Positions 4,149 through 18,712 of a stretch of DNA of 64,000 nucleotides are shown here, one piece after another; the stretch's first letter is position 1; the number at the start of each line of letters is the position of its first letter. Location: NCBI RefSeq assembly GCF_006517535.1, contig NZ_VHQH01000038.1, forward strand, positions 1-64,000, in the 5' to 3' direction. The position numbers and the translations under genes were made by a program. The notes under the pieces were generated by a model. It did no database searches. It had not been told where the DNA came from and was given only the letters and a program-made list of their open reading frames with translations. The stretch comes from Schumannella sp. 10F1B-5-1 (GTDB taxonomy: Bacteria; Actinomycetota; Actinomycetes; Actinomycetales; Microbacteriaceae).

Positions 4149-5564
4149 ATGACCTCCGCTGACCCGAACGGCGCGCCCAAGCAGATCCGCTTCAACGCGT
4201 TCGACATGAACTGCGTCGCCCACCAGTCCTCGGGACTCTGGCGCCACCCGCAGGATCGCTCGTCGACCTACAACACCCTCGAGTACTGGACCGAGCTGGC
4301 GAAGCTGCTCGAGCGCGGCACCTTCGACGGCATCTTCATCGCCGACGTGCTCGGCACCTACGACGTCTACGGATCGAGCAACGTCGCCGCGATCCGCAAC
4401 GGCGCCCAGGTGCCCGTCAACGACCCGCTCATGCTGGTCAGTGCGATGGCGCTCGTGACCGAGCACCTCGGCTTCGGCGTCACCGCCGGAACCGCCTACG
4501 AGCACCCGTACCCCTTCGCGCGCCGCCTCACGACGCTCGACCACCTCACCAAGGGGCGTGTCGGCTGGAACGTCGTCACCGGCTACCTGCCCAGCGCCGC
4601 CCGCAACATGGGCCACGACGACCAGCTCGAGCACGACGACCGCTACGACCACGCCGACGAGTACCTCGAAGTGCTCTACAAGCTGTGGGAGGGCTCGTGG
4701 GAAGACGACGCCGTCGTCAAGGACCGCGAGTCGGGCGTCTTCACCGACCCGGCGAAGGTGCACGACATCCAGCACCAGGGCAAGCACTTCAGCGTGCCCG
4801 GCATCCACATCTCCGAGCCGTCGCCGCAGCGCACGCCGGTGATCTACCAGGCGGGCGCGTCGTCGCGCGGCATCGCCTTCGCGGCCGGCAACGCCGAGGC
4901 GATCTTCATCGCCGGCCCCTCGAAGGAGGTGCTGAAGTCGACGGTCGGCAAGATCCGGGATGCGCTCGAGGCCGCCGGCCGGCCGCGCGACTCGGCGAAG
5001 ATCTACGCCCTGCTGACGATCATCACTGACGAGACCAGCGAGAAGGCCCAGGCCAAGTACCAGGACTACCTGAGCTACACGAGCGCCGAGGGCGCCCTGA
5101 CGTTCATGTCGGGCTGGATGGGCGTCGATCTGTCGAAGTACGAGCTCGACGAGCCCGTCGGCAACGTCAAGTCGAACGCGATCCAGTCGGTGCTCTCGAA
5201 CCTCGAGCACGAGAAGGAGCTCGGCCGCGAGTGGACCGTCGGCGACCTCGCCCGCGAGGGCGCGATCGGCGGCCTCGGGCCCTACGTCGTCGGCTCGGGC
5301 GAGGAGATCGCCGACCTGCTGCAGGAGTGGGTGGCCGAGACCGACATCGACGGCTTCAACCTCGCCTACGCGATCACGCCCGGCACCTTCGAGGACGTCG
5401 TCGAGCACGTCATCCCGATCCTGCGCGAGCGCGGCGTCTACCCGACCTCCTACGCCGAGGGCACGCTGCGCGAGAAGCTGCACGGTCGCGGCGACCGCCT
5501 GCCCGCCGAGCACAAGGGCGCCGGCTACCGCTGGGGCGCGGCGAACTCGACCGCGCAGGCCTGA
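4149..5564 (+). CDS. NtaA/DmoA-family FMN-dependent monooxygenase
   Basis: This 471-aa protein is a class C flavin monooxygenase of the bacterial-luciferase-like fold, NtaA/SnaA/DszA branch. Family members oxidise aminopolycarboxylates, organosulfur compounds or heterocycles using reduced FMN supplied by a partner reductase. Family signatures visible are FNAFDMNC, LWRHP, FDGIFIADVLG, YEHPYPFARRLTTLDHLTKGR with WNVVTGY, and YQAGASSRGIAFAAGNAEAIF. The substrate cannot be told from sequence. The next gene, 56 bp downstream, is an FMN reductase, which supports a two-component system. The ATG at 4149 is chosen because family homology begins a few residues later; an in-frame start at 4065 would only add low-complexity sequence. 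Confidence 0.9.
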   Translation: MTSADPNGAPKQIRFNAFDMNCVAHQSSGLWRHPQDRSSTYNTLEYWTELAKLLERGTFDGIFIADVLGTYDVYGSSNVAAIRNGAQVPVNDPLMLVSAMALVTEHLGFGVTAGTAYEHPYPFARRLTTLDHLTKGRVGWNVVTGYLPSAARNMGHDDQLEHDDRYDHADEYLEVLYKLWEGSWEDDAVVKDRESGVFTDPAKVHDIQHQGKHFSVPGIHISEPSPQRTPVIYQAGASSRGIAFAAGNAEAIFIAGPSKEVLKSTVGKIRDALEAAGRPRDSAKIYALLTIITDETSEKAQAKYQDYLSYTSAEGALTFMSGWMGVDLSKYELDEPVGNVKSNAIQSVLSNLEHEKELGREWTVGDLAREGAIGGLGPYVVGSGEEIADLLQEWVAETDIDGFNLAYAITPGTFEDVVEHVIPILRERGVYPTSYAEGTLREKLHGRGDRLPAEHKGAGYRWGAANSTAQA

Positions 5565-5620
5565 CCCACCGGGCCGGGCGTCGACCGCCCGGCCCGCCCC
5601 GAGCATCCAGGAGCTGAAGC

Positions 5621-6205
5621 ATGTCCCGTCTGAAGATCGTCGCCGTGAGCGGGAGCCCCACGGCCCCCTCGCGAACCACGGCGCTCGTCGACGACGTGGC
5701 GCGCTCGCTCGCCGAGCAGGTCGACGGCGAGGCGCAGCTCATCGAGCTGGCCCCGCTGCTCGGCCAGCTCGCGCAGGGCGTGTGGCGCACCGAGCTCGGC
5801 GCCGCCGCGCAGGCCGCGCTCGACGAGGTCGAGCAGGCGGACGTGCTGGTCGTCGGCTCGCCCGCCTACCGCGCCAGCTACACGGGCCTGTTCAAGCTGT
5901 TCTTCGACCACATCGGGCAGTACGCCCTGGTCGACAAGCCCATCCTGCTGACCGCGACCGGCGGCAGCGACCGGCACGCGCTGCTCGTCGAGCACCAGAT
6001 GCGGCCGCTGTTCGGGTTCTTCCAGTCGCACACGCTGCCGCTGGGCATCTTCGCCAGCGAGGGCGACTTCGAGAACTACCGCGTGACGAGCGACGACCTG
6101 CGCGCGCGCATCGACCTGTCGATCCGCCGGGCGCTGCCGTTCATCCGCGCGAGCGCCGCCGACCGCGACGCGCTCGCCGTCGGAGCCCGCCCCGACGCGT
6201 TCTGA
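5621..6205 (+). CDS. NAD(P)H-dependent FMN reductase (MsuE/SsuE type)
   Basis: This 194-aa flavodoxin-fold reductase carries the phosphate-binding loop SGSPTAPSRTTALV at its N terminus and the family segments VGSPAYRASYTGLFKLFFDHI and LTATGGSDRHALLVEHQMRPL. Its role is to supply FMNH2 to the monooxygenase encoded just upstream. A clear Shine-Dalgarno sequence (AGGAG, 5609-5613) precedes the ATG. It ends in a region with two hairpin repeats that separate it from the convergent amidotransferase gene. Confidence 0.88.
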   Translation: MSRLKIVAVSGSPTAPSRTTALVDDVARSLAEQVDGEAQLIELAPLLGQLAQGVWRTELGAAAQAALDEVEQADVLVVGSPAYRASYTGLFKLFFDHIGQYALVDKPILLTATGGSDRHALLVEHQMRPLFGFFQSHTLPLGIFASEGDFENYRVTSDDLRARIDLSIRRALPFIRASAADRDALAVGARPDAF

Positions 6206-8159: not shown

Positions 8160-9002
8160 TCAGGCCGCCGCGACCTCCGGCTCGGGGGTCGGCTCGCGGT
8201 CTTCGCCGGTGATGCCGCGCGCCTCGAGCGAGTTCTCGACGATCGTGAGGCCCTCGAGGCCGGGCAGGCGGGCGATGTGCGCGTCGATGCCGCGCACGAG
8301 CTTGCGGCCCTCGGAGCCCTGGAACAGGTGGCCCATCACGTGGGTGACCTCGTCGGGCTCGGCGATGGTCGAGCCGACCGGGCCCCAGAACTTGCGCAGC
8401 GCGAAGCGGGCGATGACGCGGGCCTTCTTGCTCTTGGCGAGGCGCTCGCGGGCCTGCGTGGCGTAGAAGGCGACGTGCTTGGTCTCCTGCTGGGCGATGC
8501 GCTTCAGCAGCTCGGCGAGCACCGGGTGGTCGGCGCCCTCGAGCGCGGCGAGGCGGTGGTAGGCGGCGTTGGCCGACCACTCGTTCGCGGCGCCCCAGGC
8601 CATGTGCACGGCGGCGAAGTCGATGCCGATGAGGTTCGAGCCGAACGACTGCTTGATCGGGTCGAGGCGGTCCTTGAAGCCGAGCTTGAGGCGCTTGGCC
8701 TTGAGGGCGCTGTAGTCGACGTGGATGCCGTGGCGCTCGAGCACGGCCGACAGGGCCTCGCCGTGCCAGAACTCCTCGCGGTTCCACATCGTCATGAACG
8801 CCGCGATCTCGGGCTCCTTGTGCGACGGCGTGGTGAGCATGTCGCGCAGGTAGCAGACCGTGTGGTACTCGACGTCGCACATGTAGCGCAGGCTGCGCAG
8901 CACGTGGTCGGGGAGGGGGTTGCGCTCGAACTCGTCGAAGTCGAGGTCGCTCCAGCCGACGGCGTCGGAGGCCCGGGTGTACTTGACGATGTCGAATGCC
9001 AT
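8160..9002 (-). CDS. Ferritin-like diiron protein (metal ligands intact)
   Basis: This 280-aa protein has a four-helix ferritin-like core with the complete diiron ligand pattern: E45 (DVEYHT), E77 and H80 (EEFWH), E141 (ANEWS), E173 and H176 (QQETKH). It most resembles ferritin-like oxygenases or acyl-ACP-desaturase-type proteins, which use O2 at a diiron site. Substrate and reaction are not shown by sequence. It is the third gene of an operon, 16 bp after the acyl-CoA reductase-HAD gene, and its paralogue is the first gene. That context suggests action on a fatty alcohol, aldehyde or ether lipid. The C-terminal 20 residues are Glu/Pro/Ala-rich and probably disordered. Confidence 0.78.
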   Translation of the reverse strand: MAFDIVKYTRASDAVGWSDLDFDEFERNPLPDHVLRSLRYMCDVEYHTVCYLRDMLTTPSHKEPEIAAFMTMWNREEFWHGEALSAVLERHGIHVDYSALKAKRLKLGFKDRLDPIKQSFGSNLIGIDFAAVHMAWGAANEWSANAAYHRLAALEGADHPVLAELLKRIAQQETKHVAFYATQARERLAKSKKARVIARFALRKFWGPVGSTIAEPDEVTHVMGHLFQGSEGRKLVRGIDAHIARLPGLEGLTIVENSLEARGITGEDREPTPEPEVAAA

Positions 9003-9018
9003 GCGCGATCGCGGATCC

Positions 9019-11376
9019 CTAGCTGGGGGTCCGCTCTCCTTCCTCGACGGTGCTCTCAGGTGCGGTGCTGTCGGATGCCGGCGCGGCGGGCGATGCCGAC
9101 GAAGCCATCACATCACGCTTCGCCTCGGAGCCGCCCGACTTCCACTTGACGATCCTCCATGCTCTTCGGAGCGCCTCGCGGGAGAGTTCGGCATCCGGGT
9201 TCACGGCGGTGACGTTGCCGACCAGTCCGAGCCATCCGAGGTCGGAGTGGTTGTCGCCGTAGCCGTACGACTGGCTCAGGTTGATGTCGTGCTCTTCGGC
9301 GTAGCGGCGCAGCCAGGCGCCGCGCGCCTCATCCACCAGCGGGGGCTTGGCGAGGTAGCCGGTGAGCACGCCGTCGCGCTCGTGCATGGTCGAGCCGACG
9401 ACCTCGTCGAAGAGGTGCGCGAGCGGCGCGGCGAGCAGGCCGATGGAGCCGGTGACGAGCACGGTGCGGTGCCCGGCCTCGCGGTGCTCCTTGATGCGGG
9501 CGATCGCCTCGGCGCTCGCGTGGCGGCGCATGGTGTCGGCGTAGTCGCGGCGCACGATCTTCTCGAGGCGCTCGACCGGCATCCCGGAGTAGCGGCGCAG
9601 GAAGGCGCGGATGAACTCGCCGCGGTCACGGCGCTCGGCGCGCAGGTAGCCGGGCACCGAGGCGAGCAGGCGGGCGGCCTCGCCCGGCCAGGCGGCCTTG
9701 CGGAAGCCGGAGGAGCGCACCCAGAGGTACTGCTCGACGATGTTCGAGTCGACGACGGTGCCCTCGAGGTCGAACACGGCGACGACGTCGCTGCGCTGCG
9801 GCAGCGCCTTCGGCGTCTGCGGGCGGTTCGCGATGCGCGTGGCCGCCTGCTTGCGCCGGCGGTAGGCGTTGGTCATCTCGGTGATCGCCGGGAAGTGCAC
9901 GTTCTGCAGGTAGTCGTCCCAGTCGATGCGCTCGACGTCGAAGCCGCGGTCGTCGCGCAGCTTCGCCGGCAGGGCGGCGTTGAGGGCGCGGGTGTTGCGG
10001 TCGTCGAAGATGATCTCCGACTGCACGTAGGCGCGGTACAGGTCGGTGAAGTTCTGCAGCGTCTCGATGCCGGCCTTGGTCTTGGCTAGCTCCGACTGCC
10101 AGGCGCGCGTGCGCTCGTTCGAGGGGATGCGCGACAGGGCCAGCTCCTGCAGGCCCGTCCAGCGCTTCGCGAGGGCGAGGTCGCGGGCGACCTTGCGCTC
10201 GCCGGGGAACTTCCAGTTCGGCACCGTCACGTGCCCGTCGCCCTTCGGCATCGGGTGCTCGGTGTAGTAGTGGCGCACGTTCTCGAACATCCGGTGGAAC
10301 GGGATGGGGTTCGAGGCGCCCGAGGCGACGTGGAAGTACTCGGGCTCGTTCTTCGCCGAGGGGTTAGCGGCGGCCGCGATGATCGCGTTCACGACGAAGT
10401 CGACGGGGATGAGGTCGAGGATGCTGTCGGGCAGGCCCGGGAACTCGGGCAGCTGGCCGCGGCCGTAGGCGAGGATCAGCGGGTCGGCGACCTTGAAGCC
10501 GTCGATCCAGCCCGGGAACGGGTGCTGGAAGGCGCTCTCGATGATGGTCGGGCGCACGATCGACAGCGAGTGGCCGGCCTGGCCCCACACGGTCTCAGCG
10601 GCGCGCTCGGCGAAGGCCTTGGTGAGCGTGTAGACGTCGGTCCACCCGAGGCTCTGGGCGCGCATCCGGCCGGCCGAGACGAGCTCGTCGTTGACCCACT
10701 CGACGCGGGCGGCCTCGGCGGCGGTGGCGACGGCGTTGGGGCCCTGCTTGCCGTGCTTGGCGCGGGCGGCGGCGATGAAGCCGCCGAGCACCTCGGGGCG
10801 GCGCGAGGCGAGCTCGACCTCCTTGGCGGTGGCCTGCGCGGCCTCGTACTCGGCGCGCCAGTCGACGTCGTGCTGCAGGCTCGCCTCGGGCGCGATGCCC
10901 TTGCGCAGTCCGCCGACATAGCAGGTGCTGACGTGCACGACGTGCGGGTCGCTGCCGCTCGCGAGCAGGGCCTCGTAGAGGCCGAGGGCGCCGCCGACGT
11001 TGTCGCGGAAGCCGTGGTGGATGGGCGGGTCGAACGAGACCGACGCGGCCGAGTGGATGACCACATCCAGGTCGCTGGGCAGCGGCGGCACCGAGGTGAG
11101 CCCGCCGTCGAGCACGTTCACGCGCTCCGCGAACGCGGCGGCAGCGGCCTCCTCGCCGATGGCCTCGCGCCACTTCGAGAAGACGGGCTTCTTCAGCAGC
11201 TGACGCAGGCGGGCCTCGGCCGTCAGGCTGCCCTTGCCGCGCACCAGCACCGAGATGCGGGTCTCGGGATGCTGCGACAGCAGACGCTCGAGCACCGCCT
11301 GACCGACGAAGCCGGTCGCGCCGGTGAGGAAGACGTGCGCGGGGCCGAGATCGGTCTTGGCGCGTTTGGGGGTCAC
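9019..11376 (-). CDS. Fatty acyl-CoA reductase-HAD phosphatase fusion
   Basis: This 785-aa protein has two parts. Residues about 15-500 form an NAD(P)-binding fatty-acyl-CoA reductase of the extended SDR type (FLTGATGFVGQAVL near residue 17, HVSTCYVGG, YTLTK active-site Tyr/Lys, PVDFVVNAIIAAA). It would reduce an acyl-CoA to the fatty alcohol. Residues about 530-740 form a HAD-IB (SerB-like) domain with VFDLEGT as motif I, VLVTGS as motif II and GYGDNHSDL as motif IV. Motif I reads DLE instead of the usual DxD, so the second acidic residue is Glu. The GTG start at 11376 overlaps the upstream gene's TGA (GTGA), indicating translational coupling. The long minus-strand frame continuing upstream of 11376 is not coding. 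Confidence 0.85.
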   Translation of the reverse strand: MTPKRAKTDLGPAHVFLTGATGFVGQAVLERLLSQHPETRISVLVRGKGSLTAEARLRQLLKKPVFSKWREAIGEEAAAAAFAERVNVLDGGLTSVPPLPSDLDVVIHSAASVSFDPPIHHGFRDNVGGALGLYEALLASGSDPHVVHVSTCYVGGLRKGIAPEASLQHDVDWRAEYEAAQATAKEVELASRRPEVLGGFIAAARAKHGKQGPNAVATAAEAARVEWVNDELVSAGRMRAQSLGWTDVYTLTKAFAERAAETVWGQAGHSLSIVRPTIIESAFQHPFPGWIDGFKVADPLILAYGRGQLPEFPGLPDSILDLIPVDFVVNAIIAAAANPSAKNEPEYFHVASGASNPIPFHRMFENVRHYYTEHPMPKGDGHVTVPNWKFPGERKVARDLALAKRWTGLQELALSRIPSNERTRAWQSELAKTKAGIETLQNFTDLYRAYVQSEIIFDDRNTRALNAALPAKLRDDRGFDVERIDWDDYLQNVHFPAITEMTNAYRRRKQAATRIANRPQTPKALPQRSDVVAVFDLEGTVVDSNIVEQYLWVRSSGFRKAAWPGEAARLLASVPGYLRAERRDRGEFIRAFLRRYSGMPVERLEKIVRRDYADTMRRHASAEAIARIKEHREAGHRTVLVTGSIGLLAAPLAHLFDEVVGSTMHERDGVLTGYLAKPPLVDEARGAWLRRYAEEHDINLSQSYGYGDNHSDLGWLGLVGNVTAVNPDAELSREALRRAWRIVKWKSGGSEAKRDVMASSASPAAPASDSTAPESTVEEGERTPS

Positions 11377-12194
11377 GGAACCAGCCTTGCTTCGATGGTG
11401 CTGCCGACGGCGGTCATGCCGGGCAGCGCCGAGATGAGGGCGCCGATGCCGCGAGCCTCCTCGCGGCCCTCCGCGCCGCCGAACACGATGCGCTCGAAGA
11501 AGCTGCGCTCCTCCGCGGGCCGCTCGACCGACCCGATGGGCCAGGCCGTTCCGAGCAGCTCCTTGCGCGTGATGCGCCGCGCCTTGGGGGATTCGCCGAG
11601 GCGACGCTCCGCTTCCTCCTGGAAGAAGCGGATGTGGCGGTCTTTGACCTCGAGAACGGTCTCGACCACCGACGACAGCGACTCGGCGATGCCGGCGAGA
11701 CGGCGATATGCCGCGTGCGTGATCCACTCGTCGGCGAGGCCGGCGGTGACGTGCGCGGCGACGATCTGCGGGCCGGCGAAGTTCGCCGAGATGGCGCGGC
11801 GGATGGTTCCGCGGCGGTCGCGGCGCTCGCTCACCGTCAGGCGGTGGTGGCCCTCGTCGGCAGGCAGGTCCTCTTCGGCCCTGCTCGCCTCGAGCACGGC
11901 GTCGAGGGCGTCGGCCAGCCAGAACTTCTCGTAGGCCCAGGTGGTGAGGAAGGCGGTCACTCGCGCGTCCTTGTGCGTCGCGGTCACCAGGAGGTTGCGC
12001 ATCCGGGCCATCGTCGAGCGCTCCAGGTCGCGCAGCACGCGCAGCAGTCGGGCGGCGTCGGGCTCGAGCCCGTGCTGCTCGAACTGCTCGAGGTCGAGCT
12101 CGTCGCGGTGGAAGCCCTTGGCCGTGCGGGCGAACTCGCTCACGTCGAAGGCGGTCGCCGCCGGGGCGATCGTCGTCTCGTCGTTCGTCGTCAT
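11373..12194 (-). CDS. Ferritin-like paralogue with degenerate metal site
   Basis: This 273-aa protein aligns along most of its length with the ferritin-like protein at 8160-9002: FLTTWAYEKFWLADALDAVLE against FMTMWNREEFWHGEALSAVLE, and ADEWITHAAYRRLA against ANEWSANAAYHRLA. Several ligands are lost. The positions of E77, H80 and E173 are K, L and K; E45, E141 and H176 are kept. It is therefore unlikely to bind a normal diiron centre and may be a structural or regulatory partner of the intact paralogue. It is first in the operon, and its 3' end overlaps the reductase start by 4 nt. ATG 12194 is preferred over an upstream in-frame ATG at 12236, because it leaves room for the divergent promoter. 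Confidence 0.75.
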   Translation of the reverse strand: MTTNDETTIAPAATAFDVSEFARTAKGFHRDELDLEQFEQHGLEPDAARLLRVLRDLERSTMARMRNLLVTATHKDARVTAFLTTWAYEKFWLADALDAVLEASRAEEDLPADEGHHRLTVSERRDRRGTIRRAISANFAGPQIVAAHVTAGLADEWITHAAYRRLAGIAESLSSVVETVLEVKDRHIRFFQEEAERRLGESPKARRITRKELLGTAWPIGSVERPAEERSFFERIVFGGAEGREEARGIGALISALPGMTAVGSTIEARLVP

Positions 12195-12249
12195 GATTCC
12201 GTTCGCTCTCCCGCGCGCAGGCGCGTGCGCGCGCAATCGGCCCGCACCG

Positions 12250-12256
12250 TATCGTA
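12250..12256. promoter_or_regulatory. Bidirectional promoter with shared -10 element
   Basis: On the plus strand TATCGT (12250-12255) lies 7 nt before the SDR start at 12263. On the minus strand TACGAT (complement of 12251-12256) uses the same bases shifted by one and could drive the ferritin/reductase operon with a leader of about 50 nt. No clear -35 hexamers stand out. The two halves of the putative ether-lipid locus would thus start from one site. Confidence 0.5.
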
Positions 12257-12262
12257 ACGGGC

Positions 12263-13042
12263 ATGGTCACTGCTCTGGTCACCGGCGGCACCTCGGGTAT
12301 CGGAGCCGCCTTCGCTCGCGCCCTCGCTCAGCGGGGCGACGATCTGGTTCTGGTCGCGCGCGATGCCGCGCGCCTGGAGGAGGTCGCGAACGAGCTCCGC
12401 GCTCTCGGCCGGCAGGTCGAGGTGCTTCCCGCCGACCTGGCGAACCGCGCCGACGTCGACCGGGTCGCCACCCGCATCGAGGATGCGGAGCGCCCGATCG
12501 ACCTGCTGGTCAACAACGCCGGCTTCAGCGTGCACACCAAGCTCACGTCGCGCTCGATCGAGGATCACGACCGCGCCTTCGAGGTCATGGTGCGCGCGGT
12601 GCTGGTGCTCGGCGGCGCCGCCGGGCGCGCGATGCGCGCGCGGGGTCGCGGGGCGATCGTCAACGTCTCGAGCACGGCCGGCTTCATCACGATGGGGGCA
12701 TACAGCTCCATCAAGGCGTGGGTCACCTCGTACACCGAGGGGCTCGCGAACGAGCTCCACGGCACCGGCGTCACGGCCACGGCGCTCTGCCCCGGGTGGG
12801 TGCACACCGAATTCCATGAGCGTGCGGGCATTCCCAAGTCCAGCATCCCGAACTTCCTCTGGCTCGACGCCGAACCCCTCGTCGCGACGTGCCTGCGCGA
12901 CGTGGAGCGCGGTCGGGTGATCTCTCTGCCGAGTGTTCGGTACAAGGTGCTCATCTGGTTGCTCCGCCACCTGCCGAAGGCCGCCGTGCGGGCGATCTCG
13001 CGGAAGATTTCGTCCGGCCGCCGCGATAGTCTGAAGGAATGA
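12263..13042 (+). CDS. SDR-family NAD(P)-dependent oxidoreductase
   Basis: This 259-aa classical short-chain dehydrogenase carries the cofactor motif TGGTSGIG at residue 7, NNAG near residue 83, active-site Ser in VNVSSTAG (about 137) and YSSIK (Tyr about 147). The C-terminal segment (YKVLIWLLRHLPKAAVRAISRK) is basic and amphipathic, so it may sit on the membrane. The gene overlaps the acyltransferase downstream by ATGA. A fitting role would be reduction of 1-alkyl- or 1-acyl-dihydroxyacetone phosphate to the glycerol phosphate form; this is inferred from context only. The start is supported by TATCGT 7 nt upstream. Confidence 0.85.
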   Translation: MVTALVTGGTSGIGAAFARALAQRGDDLVLVARDAARLEEVANELRALGRQVEVLPADLANRADVDRVATRIEDAERPIDLLVNNAGFSVHTKLTSRSIEDHDRAFEVMVRAVLVLGGAAGRAMRARGRGAIVNVSSTAGFITMGAYSSIKAWVTSYTEGLANELHGTGVTATALCPGWVHTEFHERAGIPKSSIPNFLWLDAEPLVATCLRDVERGRVISLPSVRYKVLIWLLRHLPKAAVRAISRKISSGRRDSLKE

Positions 13043-13944
13043 CCGCAGGCGGATCAGCGATCCGTCGAGAAGGGATGCCGATGGCAGCGATGAAGCGCGA
13101 TCGCTTCACCTCGCGACCCCAGGCGGCGGCCCGCTTCGTGGCCCAGCGCCTCATCCTGAAGCCCGTCGTGTGGACGGTGACGAAGGTCACGGTCATCGGT
13201 CGCGAGAAGGTCAAGAAGCTCGACGGCTCGTTCGTCGTGGTCGCCAACCACTCCAGCCACCTGGATGCGCCGCTCATCATGGGCGGTCTGCCCTGGAAGC
13301 AGGCGCGCACCCTCTCGACCGGCGTCGCGGCCGACTACTTCTTCGACGTGTGGTGGCGCCGCGGCCTCACGAAGCTCTTCTTCAACGCCTTCGCGGTGGA
13401 GCGCAGCGGCGGCCAGCGTCGCGGCGAGAGCGCGAAGGTGCTCGTGCAGCGCGGCGTCTCGCTGCTGGTGTTCCCCGAGGCGACCCGCTCGCGTGACGGC
13501 GGCCGCTCGCTCGGCGCCTTCAACCCGGGTGCGGCGGCGATCGCCCGCTCGGTGGGGGCCCCGTGCGTGCCGATCGCGCTGATCGGGGCCGGGCTCGCGC
13601 ATCCCCGCGGCTCGAAGTGGCCGGGGCCCGGCCGCATGCCGGTCGGCATGGTGATCGGCGACCCGATGCGTCCCGGTGACGACGAGAGCGCCGCCGACTT
13701 CATGGAGCGCGTGCGCGACGAGATCGCCCGCATGATCGTGGCCGAGCGCGACGGCATCCTCGGCGCCGAGGTGGCGGCCGAGCTGCACGGCATCGCGCCC
13801 GGCATCCCGCCGAAGCCCCTGCCGCCGCGCGGGCCCAAGCCGCCGAAGAAGCCCAAGGAATCCCGCCTCCGCTCGCGCAAGAAGCCCGAGACCCCGAAGC
13901 CCGAGACCCCGACCTCCGAGACACCCGAAGGGACCGCTCGATGA
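13039..13944 (+). CDS. PlsC-type lysophospholipid/DHAP acyltransferase
   Basis: This 301-aa acyltransferase has the HX4D catalytic motif in NHSSHLD (H71, D76), the substrate-binding FPEATRS near residue 146 and PCVPIAL further on. Members transfer acyl chains from CoA or ACP to glycerol-3-phosphate, lysophosphatidate or dihydroxyacetone phosphate. The last 50 residues are a Pro/Lys-rich tail (PPKKPKE type) likely to be disordered. The ATG at 13039 overlaps the SDR stop and follows TAGTCT (13027-13032) by 6 nt, so an internal leaderless promoter is possible. An alternative ATG at 13081 is preceded by AGAAGGG. The 3' end overlaps the next gene by ATGA. In this operon it could make the acyl-DHAP that the AGPS-like enzyme uses. 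Confidence 0.82.
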   Translation: MTAGGSAIRREGMPMAAMKRDRFTSRPQAAARFVAQRLILKPVVWTVTKVTVIGREKVKKLDGSFVVVANHSSHLDAPLIMGGLPWKQARTLSTGVAADYFFDVWWRRGLTKLFFNAFAVERSGGQRRGESAKVLVQRGVSLLVFPEATRSRDGGRSLGAFNPGAAAIARSVGAPCVPIALIGAGLAHPRGSKWPGPGRMPVGMVIGDPMRPGDDESAADFMERVRDEIARMIVAERDGILGAEVAAELHGIAPGIPPKPLPPRGPKPPKKPKESRLRSRKKPETPKPETPTSETPEGTAR

Positions 13945-15605
13945 CCGACGTCAAGCACATGAAGTGGTGGGGATGGGGCGTCGACGGCGTCGCGTTCCAC
14001 CACGAGGACAAGCCCGGCTTCGCGCCCTTCGTGCTGAAGGCGGTGGGGCTCGACCTGAACACGGCCGAGCGCACCGAGAAGCCCGACTTCGCCGATGTGC
14101 AGGTGGCCGACTCGGTCGCCCCCGCCGCGCTGATCACCGCTCTGAAGAAGGCCGTCGGCGACGAGAACGTCACGACCGACAAGCTCGACCGCGTCGTGCA
14201 CACCTTCGGCAAGAGCCTGCGCGACCTGGTGCGCATCCGGGCTCTGAAGATCGATCGCGCGCCCGACGTCGTGGTCTATCCGGCCGACGAGGATGCGGTG
14301 GCCGGCGTGGTCGCCGCGGCGGTGAAGTCCGGCGCGGTGCTGATCCCCTTCGGCGGCGGCAGCAACATCGCCGGCAGCCTCGAGCCGCACGCCGACGAGA
14401 CGCGCCCCGTGATCTCGCTCGACCTCGGCCGTCTGCGCCAGCTCATCGACATCGACGAGGAGTCGGGCCTGGCTCGCATCCAGGCCGGAGCCCTCGGCCC
14501 CGACCTCGAGGCGCAGCTGGCCGAGCGCGGCTGGACGCTGGGGCACTTCCCCGACAGCTTCACGCACTCGACCCTCGGCGGCTGGATCGCGACCCGCTCG
14601 AGCGGCATGCAGTCGGACAAGTACGGCGACATCGCCGACATCGTGCGCGGCTTCCGCGTGGTGCGCCCGAACGGCACCCTGGTGATCCGGGCGATCCCCA
14701 GCGCATCCACCGGACCGAGCGTGCGCGAGATGATCGTCGGCAGCGAGGGTCGCCTCGGCGTGATCACCGAGGCGACCGTGCAGGTGCACCGCGTGCCCGA
14801 GAAGCGCGTCATCCACGCCTACTTCTTCAAGAACTGGAATCACGCCATCGAGGCGATGCGCCAGATCTCCGAGAGCGACGCCGCGCCGAGCGTCACGCGC
14901 GTCTCCGACGGCAACGAGACCGGCTTCTCGCTCGCGACGAGCAAGGAGTCGAAGGGCGTCTCGAAGTTCGTGCAGGACTCGCTGTTCTCGTTCCTCGAGG
15001 GCCGCGGCTGGAAGCCGGGCGAGGTCTGCCTCTCGTTCATCGGCTTCGAGGGCTCGCCCGAGCACGTGAAGCGCACCAAGGCGATCGTCGACAGGATCGT
15101 GAAGAAGAACTCGGGGCTCGGCGTCGGAACCGGCCCGGGCGTGCTCTACGACCAGAAGAAGTTCGACACCCCCTACCTGCGCGACTTCCTGCTCGACATG
15201 GGCGCCGCGGGCGACGTGTCGGAGACGGCGGCGCCGTGGTCGAAGCTCATCGGCGTGCACGACGCCGTCTACGCGGCGGCCAACGGCGCCTACGAGCAGA
15301 TCGGCCGCCAGGGCTGGATCATGTCGCACCTCTCGCACTCGTACCACTCGGGCGCGTGCCTCTACTTCACCTTCGCGTTCGTGATGGGCGACGACCCGCT
15401 GGGCGAGTACGACATCGTCAAGCAGGCGATCCAGCAGGCGTTCATCGACGCCGGCGGCACGATCTCGCACCACCACGGCGTCGGCCTCGAGCACGCGCCG
15501 TGGCTCGAGCAGGACATCTCGACCGAGGGCGTCGCGGTCATGAGCGGGCTGTTCTCGTCGGCCGATCCCGACGGGCTGTTCAACCCGCGCAAGATCGTCG
15601 TCTGA
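13941..15605 (+). CDS. FAD-linked oxidase; alkylglycerone-phosphate synthase-like
   Basis: This 554-aa protein belongs to the VAO/PCMH FAD-binding fold and looks like alkyl-DHAP synthase (AGPS): the FAD loop PFGGGSNIAG near residue 135, RSSGMQSDKYGDI near 218, GSEGRLGVITEAT, HSYHSGACLYF near 465 and the HHHGVG signature near 510. AGPS exchanges the acyl group of 1-acyl-DHAP for a fatty alcohol, forming the ether bond. The protein starts with the AGPS-like KWWGWG element. Its placement after an acyltransferase and an SDR, opposite a fatty-acyl reductase, gives a full set for ether lipid synthesis. A D-lactate/glycolate oxidase-like alternative is less likely because of HHHGVG and SSGMQSDKYGDI. 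Confidence 0.85.
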   Translation: MTDVKHMKWWGWGVDGVAFHHEDKPGFAPFVLKAVGLDLNTAERTEKPDFADVQVADSVAPAALITALKKAVGDENVTTDKLDRVVHTFGKSLRDLVRIRALKIDRAPDVVVYPADEDAVAGVVAAAVKSGAVLIPFGGGSNIAGSLEPHADETRPVISLDLGRLRQLIDIDEESGLARIQAGALGPDLEAQLAERGWTLGHFPDSFTHSTLGGWIATRSSGMQSDKYGDIADIVRGFRVVRPNGTLVIRAIPSASTGPSVREMIVGSEGRLGVITEATVQVHRVPEKRVIHAYFFKNWNHAIEAMRQISESDAAPSVTRVSDGNETGFSLATSKESKGVSKFVQDSLFSFLEGRGWKPGEVCLSFIGFEGSPEHVKRTKAIVDRIVKKNSGLGVGTGPGVLYDQKKFDTPYLRDFLLDMGAAGDVSETAAPWSKLIGVHDAVYAAANGAYEQIGRQGWIMSHLSHSYHSGACLYFTFAFVMGDDPLGEYDIVKQAIQQAFIDAGGTISHHHGVGLEHAPWLEQDISTEGVAVMSGLFSSADPDGLFNPRKIVV

Positions 15606-15674
15606 TCCGCGGTCGGCCCGGATGCGCGACCGCACGATCCGTCGCCGCCGTACCCGCGCCCGGGCCTGGGCCCT

Positions 15675-15710
15675 CTCCGCCGCGTCACCCGCTGGGGTTA
15701 CGCGGCGGAG
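15675..15710 (+). terminator. Hairpin after the AGPS-like gene
   Basis: CTCCGCCGCGT (15675-15685) pairs with ACGCGGCGGAG (15700-15710) around a 14-nt loop. There is no U-run. It may end the SDR-acyltransferase-AGPS transcript before the separate promoter of the kinase gene. Confidence 0.5.
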
Positions 15711-15768
15711 GCGTGTCGCGGCCGTTCGGTCTGTCCTCCATCGCATCCGGCCCGATAGCGTTCTCGGG

Positions 15769-15807
15769 ATGCACCAGTTCTCACCCCTGAGTCACCCTCG
15801 GCAATGA
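15769..15807 (+). CDS. Putative 12-residue leader peptide coupled to the kinase gene
   Basis: A TAGCGT box (15756-15761) is followed after 7 nt by ATG and a 12-codon frame reading MHQFSPLSHPRQ. Its TGA overlaps the ATG of the PfkB-family gene (ATGA at 15804-15807). This is the same spacing as the leaderless genes in this window, so the short frame is probably translated from the 5' end of the mRNA, and the kinase would depend on coupled re-initiation. The product itself resembles nothing known to me. The alternative is that it is incidental and the kinase simply has a 35-nt leader. Confidence 0.45.
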   Translation: MHQFSPLSHPRQ

Positions 15808-16694
15808 CGCGCCGGGTGATCGCGGTCGGCGATGTCAATCACGACATCCTCGTCTCACCGCACCACAGCGTCCGGCCGAGCTCCGACACGCCCTCGACCG
15901 TGCGCTTCCGCCCCGGTGGCAGCGCCGCCAACACCGCGGCGTGGCTCGCCTCGCTCGGCGTCGGCGTCGACCTGGTCGGCGCGATCGGCTCGGCCGACTA
16001 CGACCGCTACGTCGCCGAGCTCGAGGATGCCGGGGTCACGCCGCGCCTGCAGCGCGAGGTCGGCATGACCACCGGCACGATCATCATCATCGTCGAGCGC
16101 GGCCAGGACCCGACGATGTTCACCGAGCGCGGGGCGAACGCGCTGCTCTCGCCGGCGGCCGTGACGCCCGAGCTGCTCGCCGAGGCCGCGGCCGTGCATC
16201 TCAGCGCCTACAGCTTCGTCGACGGCTTCGGCGTCTCGGGCGCCCGCGACGTGATCGACCGCTCGACCGCCGCCGGCGTGCCGGTCGTGGTCAATCCGAG
16301 CTCGCCCGACTACATGCGCGACTTCGGCGTCGAGGCGTTCCTCGAGGCCTCCCGCGGCGCCTCGGTGATCTTCCCGAACCTCGAAGAGGGCGAGCTGCTG
16401 ACGGGCGAGTCGAGCCCCGAGCGGATGATCGCGGCCTTCCACGACATCGCCGAGACGGTCGTGCTGACCCTCGGCGCCGAGGGGGCGATGGGCCAGCACC
16501 GCTCGGGCTCGCCGATCGTGCGCGTGCCGGCCCCCTCCGTGCGCGTCGTCGATCCCACGGGCGCCGGCGACGCCTTCGCCGCCGGGTTCCTCAGCACGTG
16601 GATCGACGATCAGCGGCTCGAGCCGGCGATGCAGTCGGCTGTGCAGGCGGCGGCCCGAGCGATCATGCTCATCGGCGGCCGCCCGGGCGTCTGA
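15804..16694 (+). CDS. PfkB-family carbohydrate kinase
   Basis: This 296-aa protein belongs to the ribokinase/PfkB family. It has the N-terminal substrate-side motif GGSAANTAAWLASLG near residue 36 and the catalytic signature DPTGAGDAFAAGFL near residue 250, with D as the base and GAGD as the anion hole. It phosphorylates a sugar or nucleoside with ATP; the exact substrate is not evident. It begins inside the stop codon of a 12-codon frame. It lies 198 bp after the AGPS-like gene, so linkage to that operon is uncertain. A family B hairpin follows. Confidence 0.85.
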   Translation: MTRRVIAVGDVNHDILVSPHHSVRPSSDTPSTVRFRPGGSAANTAAWLASLGVGVDLVGAIGSADYDRYVAELEDAGVTPRLQREVGMTTGTIIIIVERGQDPTMFTERGANALLSPAAVTPELLAEAAAVHLSAYSFVDGFGVSGARDVIDRSTAAGVPVVVNPSSPDYMRDFGVEAFLEASRGASVIFPNLEEGELLTGESSPERMIAAFHDIAETVVLTLGAEGAMGQHRSGSPIVRVPAPSVRVVDPTGAGDAFAAGFLSTWIDDQRLEPAMQSAVQAAARAIMLIGGRPGV

Positions 16695-16818: not shown

Positions 16819-16852
16819 ACCCCCATTCGGGGGTCGTGCGTCCCCTAGGGTG
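16819..16852 (+). promoter_or_regulatory. Palindrome and -10 box upstream of the secreted protein gene
   Basis: GACCCCC-ATTC-GGGGGTC (16819-16836, 7-bp arms) is followed by TGCGTCCCC and TAGGGT (16847-16852), a fitting -10. The palindrome is in the position of an operator or activator site. A comparable C-tract region with TGCGTCCCCC occurs at 63771-63780, so one regulator could act on both, but this is inference. Confidence 0.45.
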
Positions 16853-16909
16853 TCAGGGCGGCAACGGAGCCGCGGCAGCGACGGAGCTGCCACGAGAAGG
16901 GGAGACCTC

Positions 16910-18712
16910 GTGAATCAGACCAGAAGAAGAAGCATGCCCACGCGGCGGCTCGCGCTCGTCGCGGCCGCGGCGGTCGGCCTGGCGGGCGCCATCACGCCCG
17001 CCCTTTCGGCGCAGGCGGTCGACACCAGCGACACGCCCGATTTCGGCAGCAGCGTCAAGATCTACGACCCGTCGACGCCGGCGGCGACGATCCAGGGCGA
17101 CGTGGATGCGGCCTTCAACGCCCAGCTGCTGAACCCGGATGCGCAGTTCGGCTCGCAGCGCTACGCCTTCCTGTTCAAGCCCGGCGACTACGGCCGCGTC
17201 TGGGCGAACCTGGGCTTCTACACCTCGGTCGCCGGACTCGGCAAGAACCCCGACGACGTCAAGCTCACCGGCGCGGTCAACGTCGACTCGGGCTGGAACT
17301 ACGGCGACCAGTCGAACGCCACCCAGAACTTCTGGCGCTCGGTCGAGAACATCGCGATCATCCCCGACGGCGGCACCGACCGCTGGGCGGTCTCGCAGGC
17401 CGCGCCGATGCGCCGTGTGCACATCCAGGGCGACCTGACGATGGGGCCCTCGAACCAGGACAACGGCCAGGGCTACTCGTCGGGCGGCTACATCGCCGAC
17501 AGCAAGGTCGACGGCACCGTCACCTCCGGCTCGCAGCAGCAGTGGTACACCCGCGACTCGTCGCTCGGCGCGTGGCAGGGCGGCAACTGGAACATGGTCT
17601 TCTCGGGCGTGAACGGCGCCCCGGCGAACGACTTCTCGAAGAGCTACACGACCCTCGACAGCACCCCGACGGTGCGCGAGAAGCCGTACCTCTACATCGA
17701 CGACGCCGGCAAGTACCACGTCTTCGTGCCCTCGCTGCAGCACGACCGCAGCGGCGTCTCGTGGCCGAACACGCCGGGCACCGACATCCCGATGCGCGAC
17801 TTCTACGTCGCGCACCCGGGTGACAGCGCATCCACGCTCAACGCGGCGCTCGACCAGGGTCTGAACCTGTTCTTCACCCCGGGCACCTACCAGCTGGATG
17901 CGCCCATCGACGTGACCCGCCCGGGCACCGTCGTGACGGGTATCGGCTTCCCGACGCTCACGCCGACCAACGGCAACGCGGTGCTCACGACCGCCGACGT
18001 CGACGGCGTGAACATCTCGAGCCTCGTCGTGGATGCGGGACAGCAGAACAGCGACCAGCTGATCCGCCTCGGCACCGCCGGATCGCACACCGACCACGCG
18101 GCCGACCCGCAGACGATCCAGGACGTGTTCGTGCGCATCGGATCGAGCATCCAGGGCAACGCGACCACGACCCTGCAGGTCAACGCCGACGACACGGTCA
18201 TCGACCACATCTGGGCCTGGCGCGCCGACCACGGCGGCGCCCCGACCGGCTGGAACGTCAACCAGGGCGCGACCGGCGTGCAGGTCGACGGCGACGACGT
18301 GCTCGCCACCGGACTGTTCGTCGAGCACTACCAGAAGCACGAGGTGATCTGGAACGGCGAGCGCGGTCGCACGATCTTCTTCCAGAACGAGCTGCCCTAC
18401 GACGTGCCCGACAATGCGTCGTGGCAGAGCCCGACGGGCGCCGGCTATGCGGCCTACAAGGTCGCCGACGGCGTGACCAGCCACGAGATCTGGGGCGGCG
18501 GGGTGTACTCGTTCTTCAACGTGAACCCCTCGGTCGTCGCCGACCGCGGCTTCGAGTTCCCGAACGCCGCGGGCGTGCGCGGACACAACCTGTTCACGGT
18601 GTCGCTCGGCGATGTCGGCACGATCAACCACGTCGTGAACGACGTCGGAGGTCCCGTGCCGAACCCGGCGGGCAACACGACGCCGAGCCGGGTCGTCAGC
18701 TACCCGGGATGA
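16910..18712 (+). CDS. Secreted right-handed beta-helix protein
   Basis: This 600-aa protein has a signal peptide: a basic N region (NQTRRRSMPTRR), a hydrophobic core, and a likely cleavage after ALSAQA near residue 36. The mature part shows stacked short beta-strand coils typical of parallel beta-helix proteins (LFFTPGTYQLDAPIDV, VVTGIGFPTL, VNISSLVVDAG, TVIDHIWAWRADHGG). Such proteins are pectate-lyase-like glycan-active enzymes or adhesins; no catalytic residues can be assigned here. The composition is rich in Asn, Asp and Gly, as expected for an exported protein. The GTG at 16910 has GGGGAG 6-8 nt upstream. An open frame begins earlier, but it would place the signal peptide internally. 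Confidence 0.75.
   Translation: MNQTRRRSMPTRRLALVAAAAVGLAGAITPALSAQAVDTSDTPDFGSSVKIYDPSTPAATIQGDVDAAFNAQLLNPDAQFGSQRYAFLFKPGDYGRVWANLGFYTSVAGLGKNPDDVKLTGAVNVDSGWNYGDQSNATQNFWRSVENIAIIPDGGTDRWAVSQAAPMRRVHIQGDLTMGPSNQDNGQGYSSGGYIADSKVDGTVTSGSQQQWYTRDSSLGAWQGGNWNMVFSGVNGAPANDFSKSYTTLDSTPTVREKPYLYIDDAGKYHVFVPSLQHDRSGVSWPNTPGTDIPMRDFYVAHPGDSASTLNAALDQGLNLFFTPGTYQLDAPIDVTRPGTVVTGIGFPTLTPTNGNAVLTTADVDGVNISSLVVDAGQQNSDQLIRLGTAGSHTDHAADPQTIQDVFVRIGSSIQGNATTTLQVNADDTVIDHIWAWRADHGGAPTGWNVNQGATGVQVDGDDVLATGLFVEHYQKHEVIWNGERGRTIFFQNELPYDVPDNASWQSPTGAGYAAYKVADGVTSHEIWGGGVYSFFNVNPSVVADRGFEFPNAAGVRGHNLFTVSLGDVGTINHVVNDVGGPVPNPAGNTTPSRVVSYPG

Follow-up and report, generated by a model that had tools for sequence, protein, structure and literature searches.

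Ether lipids of animals are made by a peroxisomal pathway composed of FAR1, GNPAT, AGPS (alkylglycerone-phosphate synthase), an alkyl-DHAP reductase and the membrane enzyme PEDS1 (TMEM189). Myxococcus xanthus likewise makes ether lipids as an aerobic bacterium, with AGPS-, FAR-, acyltransferase- and HAD-type proteins encoded in the elb and MXAN_1674-1676 operons and with CarF as the desaturase, and myxobacteria have been reviewed as exceptional among aerobic bacteria for plasmalogens; reports of CarF come chiefly from myxobacteria, with a few Leptospira and Alphaproteobacteria (PMC9131029). The clostridial PlsA/PlsR route (PMC9702350) is reductive and anaerobic and starts from diacyl lipids. 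Acid methanolysis of vinyl ethers gives dimethyl acetals (DMA). They serve as an indicator of plasmalogens (PMC7472656) and have been described in the aerobic genera Subtercola, Frigoribacterium and Kineococcus, the relevant sections of those papers naming no enzyme. AGPS homologues have been reported in actinobacterial MAGs from the Black Sea (PMC11868695).

The locus described here lies in a window of 64,000 nucleotides, the whole stretch of DNA analysed, from Schumannella sp. 10F1B-5-1 (NZ_VHQH01000038.1). It is composed of six adjoining genes in two divergent operons, FerA, FAR-HAD and FerB on one strand and the SDR, PlsC and AGPS-like genes on the other (Table 1); FerA and FerB are names coined in the present analysis. 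The original prediction, made from the sequence alone, had listed a FAR-HAD fusion, a PlsC, an SDR, an AGPS-like flavoenzyme and two ferritin-like proteins in this divergent region, and all six genes are as stated. Gene content and motifs are shown: the flavoenzyme motifs quoted are present, and so are the ATGA overlaps of the plus strand, of 4 nt each at the SDR/PlsC and PlsC/AGPS junctions. The predicted spacing of 4-16 nt between the minus-strand genes held in part, the 16 nt between FAR-HAD and FerB being right and FerA and FAR-HAD overlapping by 4 nt (GTGA). FAR-HAD matches the Pfam families NAD_binding_4 (1.2e-43) and HAD (2.1e-30) and carries the motifs GATGFVG at 19, YTLTK at 249 and FDLEGT, and the AGPS-like protein has the domains FAD_binding_4 and FAD-oxidase_C.

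Table 1. Features of the ether-lipid module in the window
Feature	Coordinates	Strand	Remarks
FerB, ferritin-like diiron protein, candidate alkyl-chain (vinyl-ether) desaturase	8160..9002	-	280 aa; ligand set, AlphaFold, Foldseek
FAR-HAD, fatty acyl reductase fused to HAD-IB phosphatase-like domain	9019..11376	-	785 aa; GTG start; Pfam, motifs
FerA, FerB paralogue without metal ligands, proposed structural partner	11373..12194	-	273 aa; ligand loss, AlphaFold
Divergent intergenic region, presumed promoters for both operons	12195..12262		68 nt; inferred from sequence only
SDR, proposed alkyl-DHAP reductase	12263..13042	+	259 aa; adh_short 1.5e-44; GGTSGIG, YSSIK
PlsC-type acyltransferase	13039..13944	+	301 aa; Acyltransferase PF01553 7.4e-18; HSSHLD, FPEATR
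AGPS-like flavoenzyme (alkylglycerone-phosphate-synthase-like)	13941..15605	+	554 aa; PDB matches, active-site positions

Up to alkyl-G3P the module resembles the animal pathway in logic and in the kinds of enzyme. Unlike the animal system its genes form one bacterial cluster, FAR is fused to HAD, and a soluble ferritin-like protein stands where the membrane enzyme PEDS1 acts. Fusions and gene order differ from those of M. xanthus, and the myxobacterial desaturase CarF was not found here, in a search without positive control. With the clostridial route the shared feature would be the plasmalogen end product.

A PfkB-family kinase (15804-16694), absent from the original prediction, lies 198 nt beyond the AGPS gene. 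It was rejected as a pathway member and is regarded as a local neighbour only, since a PfkB match adjoins the module in just five of the eleven mapped relatives having the full module (L026-L029, L032). At 16850-18712 the window encodes a 620-aa protein without Pfam match at 1e-5, and of the mapped relatives' loci just L028 and L029 have it next to the module. At 4149-6205 an NtaA/DmoA-family FMN monooxygenase adjoins an MsuE-type FMN reductase, a pair probably concerned with sulfur- or nitrogen-source utilisation.

The best PDB matches of the flavoenzyme are two alkyl-DHAP synthases, 2uuu (E 5.5e-117) and 4bby (E 4.8e-84), which we take to be the Dictyostelium alkyl-DHAP synthase and guinea pig AGPS; the best-matching D-lactate dehydrogenase in the PDB reaches E 5.6e-25. 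Identity to guinea pig AGPS is 32% across 525 columns. The 4bby residues D303, R419, R515, Y578 and H615-617, which we take to be the active-site positions of guinea pig AGPS, align to D205, R320, R414, Y475 and H510-512 of the window protein, and these are identical in every covering row among 64 aligned AGPS. The likeness to AGPS is thus shown, and because the E-values favour alkyl-DHAP synthases and the AGPS positions are kept, there is little doubt that the protein is AGPS-like and not a D-2-hydroxyacid oxidase; its exchange activity is inferred. A place among those oxidases, which would have refuted the original prediction, was not found, by similarity rather than by a tree. The claim that these genes make alkyl ether lipids is well supported by the AGPS likeness and by the company of FAR, SDR and PlsC, and we regard an alkyl-ether module as very probable, the activity and the reactions in this organism remaining inferences.

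FerB and FerA are paralogues with 34-35% identity within the window. The FerB residues E45, E76, E77, H80, E141, E173 and H176 are kept in 81 of 81 copies, a conservation that is shown, and the pattern E45, E77xxH80, E141, E173xxH176 represents the full ferritin-type set (E, ExxH, E, ExxH), as judged by sequence and without metal distances. In 68 of 68 copies of FerA, E77, H80 and E173 are lost, with K, R or Q at 77, I, L, M, V or T at 80 and K, R or Q at 173; in a separate set of 14 FerA sequences E77 is kept only in L040, and H80 and E173 in none. FerB is also the better conserved of the two, with a mean column identity of 73% (14 sequences) versus 49% for FerA (12 sequences). The prediction of two ferritin-like proteins is therefore corrected in that only FerB keeps the ligands, and FerA, whose ligands are lost, was rejected as a second diiron enzyme. 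Retention in FerB and loss in FerA suggest, by inference, that FerB is a catalytic subunit and FerA a metal-free structural partner. This partner is not required in every case, as all seven Jiangella genomes have FerB without FerA.

In Pfam, FerB stays below every cut-off, with weak matches to Rubrerythrin, FA_desaturase_2 (in 35 of 56 members) and COQ7; the window FerB scores 16.9 bits against PF03405, the soluble acyl-ACP desaturase model, whose cut-off is 22.7. FerA has no Pfam match. A profile search against PDB sequences gave nothing significant (best DesA2, 0.18). AlphaFold models had a pLDDT of 91 for FerB and 89 for FerA. In Foldseek FerB matches plant acyl-ACP desaturases best, at E 1.2e-3 or above, followed by R2-like oxidases and by RNR R2, and the top matches of FerA are R2-like oxidases, with no fold match of either protein at E 0.001 or better. 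With soluble acyl-ACP desaturases, R2-like oxidases and RNR R2, FerB shares the helical bundle and the E, ExxH, E, ExxH pattern, but identity is 12-17%, the sequence models remain below cut-off, and FerB differs by an adjoining metal-free paralogue and a genetic link to AGPS. These weak fold matches place FerB by superfamily, not by reaction, and leave its site on the chain undetermined.

One FerB relative, 54% identical (L037:9104-9898), in a genome without close AGPS (G039), directly adjoins phenylacetate-type genes, named by eye as a CoA ligase and a hydroxyacyl-CoA dehydrogenase. Another role for the family is possible there.

A genome scan with FerB yielded 328 relatives, of which the top-scoring 80 were retained, so that the sample is biased to close ones. 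All seven domains of the module were present within the fetched stretch in 65 of these 80 loci, and 64 of the 65 keep the gene order and orientation of the window, a recurrence which argues that the arrangement is more than chance. Full-module loci include Schumannella, Pseudolysinimonas, Salinibacterium, Plantibacter, Agreia and Agrococcus, as well as Herbiconiux (9/9 loci) and Subtercola (6/6 loci). Four others are titled Streptomyces; in the three compared, the nearest sequences after each other are those of Microbacteriaceae, which suggests that the module was transferred as one unit. Subtercola-type loci carry, between FAR-HAD and FerB, a LarA N-terminal-domain protein (PF09861, 2e-28) and a second PlsC-like acyltransferase (L098:6564-8836, L107:6597-8851, L031:12493-14747). 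A MAG titled Acidobacteria bacterium (L048) has a Microbacteriaceae-like module with a FerB 78% identical, and its bin label is probably wrong.

Fifteen loci were incomplete. Thirteen genomes of this group were searched, and ten carry AGPS elsewhere at 60-74% identity, one has a 38% AGPS homologue and two have none at 1e-40. Jiangella was rejected as a counter-example, since 7/7 genomes carry an AGPS of 60-63% elsewhere. A broken AGPS in Agreia and others was rejected in five of six flagged matches, where the first stop at residue 555-557 is the natural end; the sixth, in the MAG L102, is split. Across the 49 loci in which six genes were usable, distances of FerB and AGPS correlate at 0.82, a value reached in none of 1000 shuffles, although without a housekeeping-gene control this may reflect shared descent alone. 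For stand-alone Fer pairs no shared partner was seen in the neighbourhoods of 10 loci, inspected by eye from N-termini. In L034 an epoxide-hydrolase-like gene directly precedes such a pair.

The original prediction had proposed to look for the gene set in other Microbacteriaceae, and it is found there: besides the many full-module loci, 67 of 249 genomes of the family have both AGPS and FerB, none AGPS only, eight FerB only and 174 neither (cut-offs E up to 1e-60 for FerB and up to 1e-120 for AGPS). Every family genome with a close AGPS thus also has FerB (67/67). Family genomes are not independent; counted by genus (n=78), 26 have both, none AGPS only, two FerB only and 50 neither, and inside two genera FerB and AGPS vary together (G012/G151 and G020/G156). 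Among 59 relatives, with an AGPS threshold of at least 50% identity, 13 have both, one AGPS only (G049) and two FerB only (G029, G039). Among 296 genomes of the class, with AGPS restricted to close matches (E below 1e-150), both are present in 21, AGPS only in 13, FerB only in 14 and neither in 248.

This co-occurrence is shown, and so are its exceptions. FerB without close AGPS occurs in 8/75 family genomes, in one of which (G164) the sequence ends at a contig end, and in 14/35 class genomes. Close AGPS without FerB occurs in 13/34 class genomes; eleven of these thirteen are one genus, and FAR, SDR and PlsC are not near AGPS in the three loci inspected. G328 has AGPS, PlsC, SDR and FAR-HAD and no FerB. 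In a further 122 of the 296, seven of which have FerB, the sole AGPS-like match is a weaker one. It represents a second AGPS-like clade, at mostly 35-42% identity to the window AGPS, that is widespread in the class and mostly without FerB. FerB thus tracks the module closely but not obligatorily, which fits an optional reaction late in the pathway or an enzyme that also serves elsewhere.

Known vinyl-ether enzymes were looked for in the same genomes. PF10520 (CarF/PEDS1) had no match in 32 FerB-bearing and 296 class genomes; no control matched either, so its absence is unproven. With this reservation, replacement of FerB by CarF in AGPS-positive, FerB-negative genomes was rejected, no case occurring in the 296. 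PF09989, which we take to be a marker of the PlsA-type anaerobic plasmalogen system, matched 4 of 14 controls and one of the 32 FerB-bearing genomes (G094, Ruaniaceae KH17), and is absent from all three Subtercola genomes searched.

Acetals have been published for a module-bearing aerobe. Subtercola vilae DB165, whose genome has the full module (L098) with an intact AGPS and no match to PF10520 (again without positive control) or PF09989, contains 17.0% i-16:0, 3.2% a-15:0 and 1.9% a-17:0 DMA, about 22% in total; three other tabulated Subtercola also have DMA, Agreia has little and Frondihabitans none (PMC5945732). In Kineococcus rubinsiae a peak called 14:0 2-OH proved by GC-MS to be anteiso-15:0 DMA, and routine software may file this acetal under that name (PMC7472656); the 15.6% "14:0 2-OH" of S. 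vilae (PMC9287328) is consistent with the same misnaming. Frigoribacterium adelgis and F. faeni have anteiso-15:0 aldehyde/DMA, missing in two other species of the genus (PMC12823222), and a Frigoribacterium MAG (L124) has the module. The main text of a Herbiconiux paper mentions neither DMA nor 2-OH acids (PMC10011130), 14:0 2-OH is present just in traces in Lacisediminihabitans profunda (PMC7033078), of which a congener has the module, and Subtercola endophyticus has none (PMC9287328). These findings count against a vinyl-ether role only in so far as the strains carry the module and the method used would reveal acetals. For the strain and genus of the window no lipid data were found in the open-access literature searched.

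In the pathway we propose, FAR would make a fatty alcohol, the PlsC-type acyltransferase would acylate DHAP and/or the sn-2 position, AGPS would replace the acyl chain on acyl-DHAP with the fatty alcohol to give the ether, and the SDR would reduce alkyl-DHAP to alkyl-glycerol-3-phosphate; the HAD domain may remove the phosphate from some intermediate. FerB would act as a soluble diiron enzyme with the fold of acyl-ACP desaturases and R2-like proteins, joined where present by FerA as its metal-free partner. Using O2 and electrons from an unidentified donor, it would desaturate the alkyl chain beside the ether oxygen (delta-1') to a vinyl ether and hence yield a plasmalogen made without CarF/PEDS1. 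Its substrate may differ from that of CarF, for example alkyl-DHAP or alkyl-G3P, perhaps a lyso or pre-lipid alkyl substrate, since CarF acts on an ethanolamine lipid and the published list of polar lipids in S. vilae comprises PG, DPG and glycolipids, PE not being named (PMC5945732). This argument is weak, because two Herbiconiux species reported with PE (PMC10011130) are module-bearing.

Without biochemistry we give this O2-dependent ether-lipid pathway, with FerB forming the vinyl ether, a probability of about 0.6. All reactions in this organism and the order of steps are inferred, most of all what FerB does and at which position. The original suggestion that the diiron protein may act on the alkyl chain gained support from the co-occurrence, the ligand conservation, the weak desaturase-like folds and the published DMA of an aerobe that has the module but matches neither the CarF nor the PlsA-type model, and we think it likely, the reaction being inferred; the vinyl-ether step stays an inference, and whether FerB is specifically a delta-1' desaturase could go either way. 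Against a vinyl-ether role stand the genomes with FerB but no AGPS, those outside the family in which AGPS occurs without FerB, the module-bearing genera for which no acetals are reported and the lack of a positive control for CarF.

The alternative that survives best, though unlikely, is that the module makes saturated 1-O-alkyl lipids, that FerB and FerA oxidise or desaturate a different position or chain, and that the vinyl ether comes from another, unidentified enzyme. In its favour are the eight family genomes with FerB only and the FerB relative beside phenylacetate genes; soluble acyl-ACP desaturases act mid-chain, and the fold matches do not reveal the site of action. Against it, FerB is never missing from family genomes with close AGPS, and S. 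vilae makes acetals without a CarF match, as far as that uncontrolled search goes, or a PlsA-type match. Much less probable is that DMA derive from fatty aldehydes released by FAR and not from vinyl ethers, the module serving for wax, alcohol or plain alkyl lipid. The wording "aldehyde/DMA" of the Frigoribacterium peak and the acyl reductase within the module would fit, but we infer that some 22% of the S. vilae profile is much for free aldehyde, and the presence of AGPS in the operon points to an ether lipid as product. We can virtually discount FerB as an aldehyde-deformylating oxygenase that would turn FAR-derived aldehyde into hydrocarbons: enzymes of that type belong to the ferritin-like proteins and adjoin acyl reductases in cyanobacteria, but no hydrocarbon-enzyme family is among the Pfam and NCBIfam matches and FAR sits with AGPS. 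A D-2-hydroxyacid dehydrogenase in a locus unrelated to ether lipids is practically ruled out, for despite the common fold family the nearest NCBIfam model, GlcD, scores 133.8 bits, far below its cut-off of 567.9, and the PDB E-values, the conserved AGPS positions and the partners FAR, PlsC and SDR all speak against it.

The open-access literature searched, from which subscription papers are mostly missing, yielded no paper that connects plasmalogens with a ferritin-like protein or with this gene set. The module represents a concrete, testable gene set for the missing enzyme of aerobic actinobacterial acetals, and FerB, a protein outside any named family, makes a good candidate for the still unidentified plasmalogen enzyme of such aerobes. 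On a bolder reading, which we would neither defend nor dismiss at present, FerB with FerA would be a third plasmalogen route, a soluble ferritin-fold diiron delta-1' desaturase of aerobic actinobacteria, explaining the DMA reported for aerobic Microbacteriaceae since 2000. If true, this route would be unrelated to both membrane CarF/PEDS1 and PlsA/PlsR, and its solubility would make this vinyl-ether desaturase more amenable to study than a membrane enzyme.
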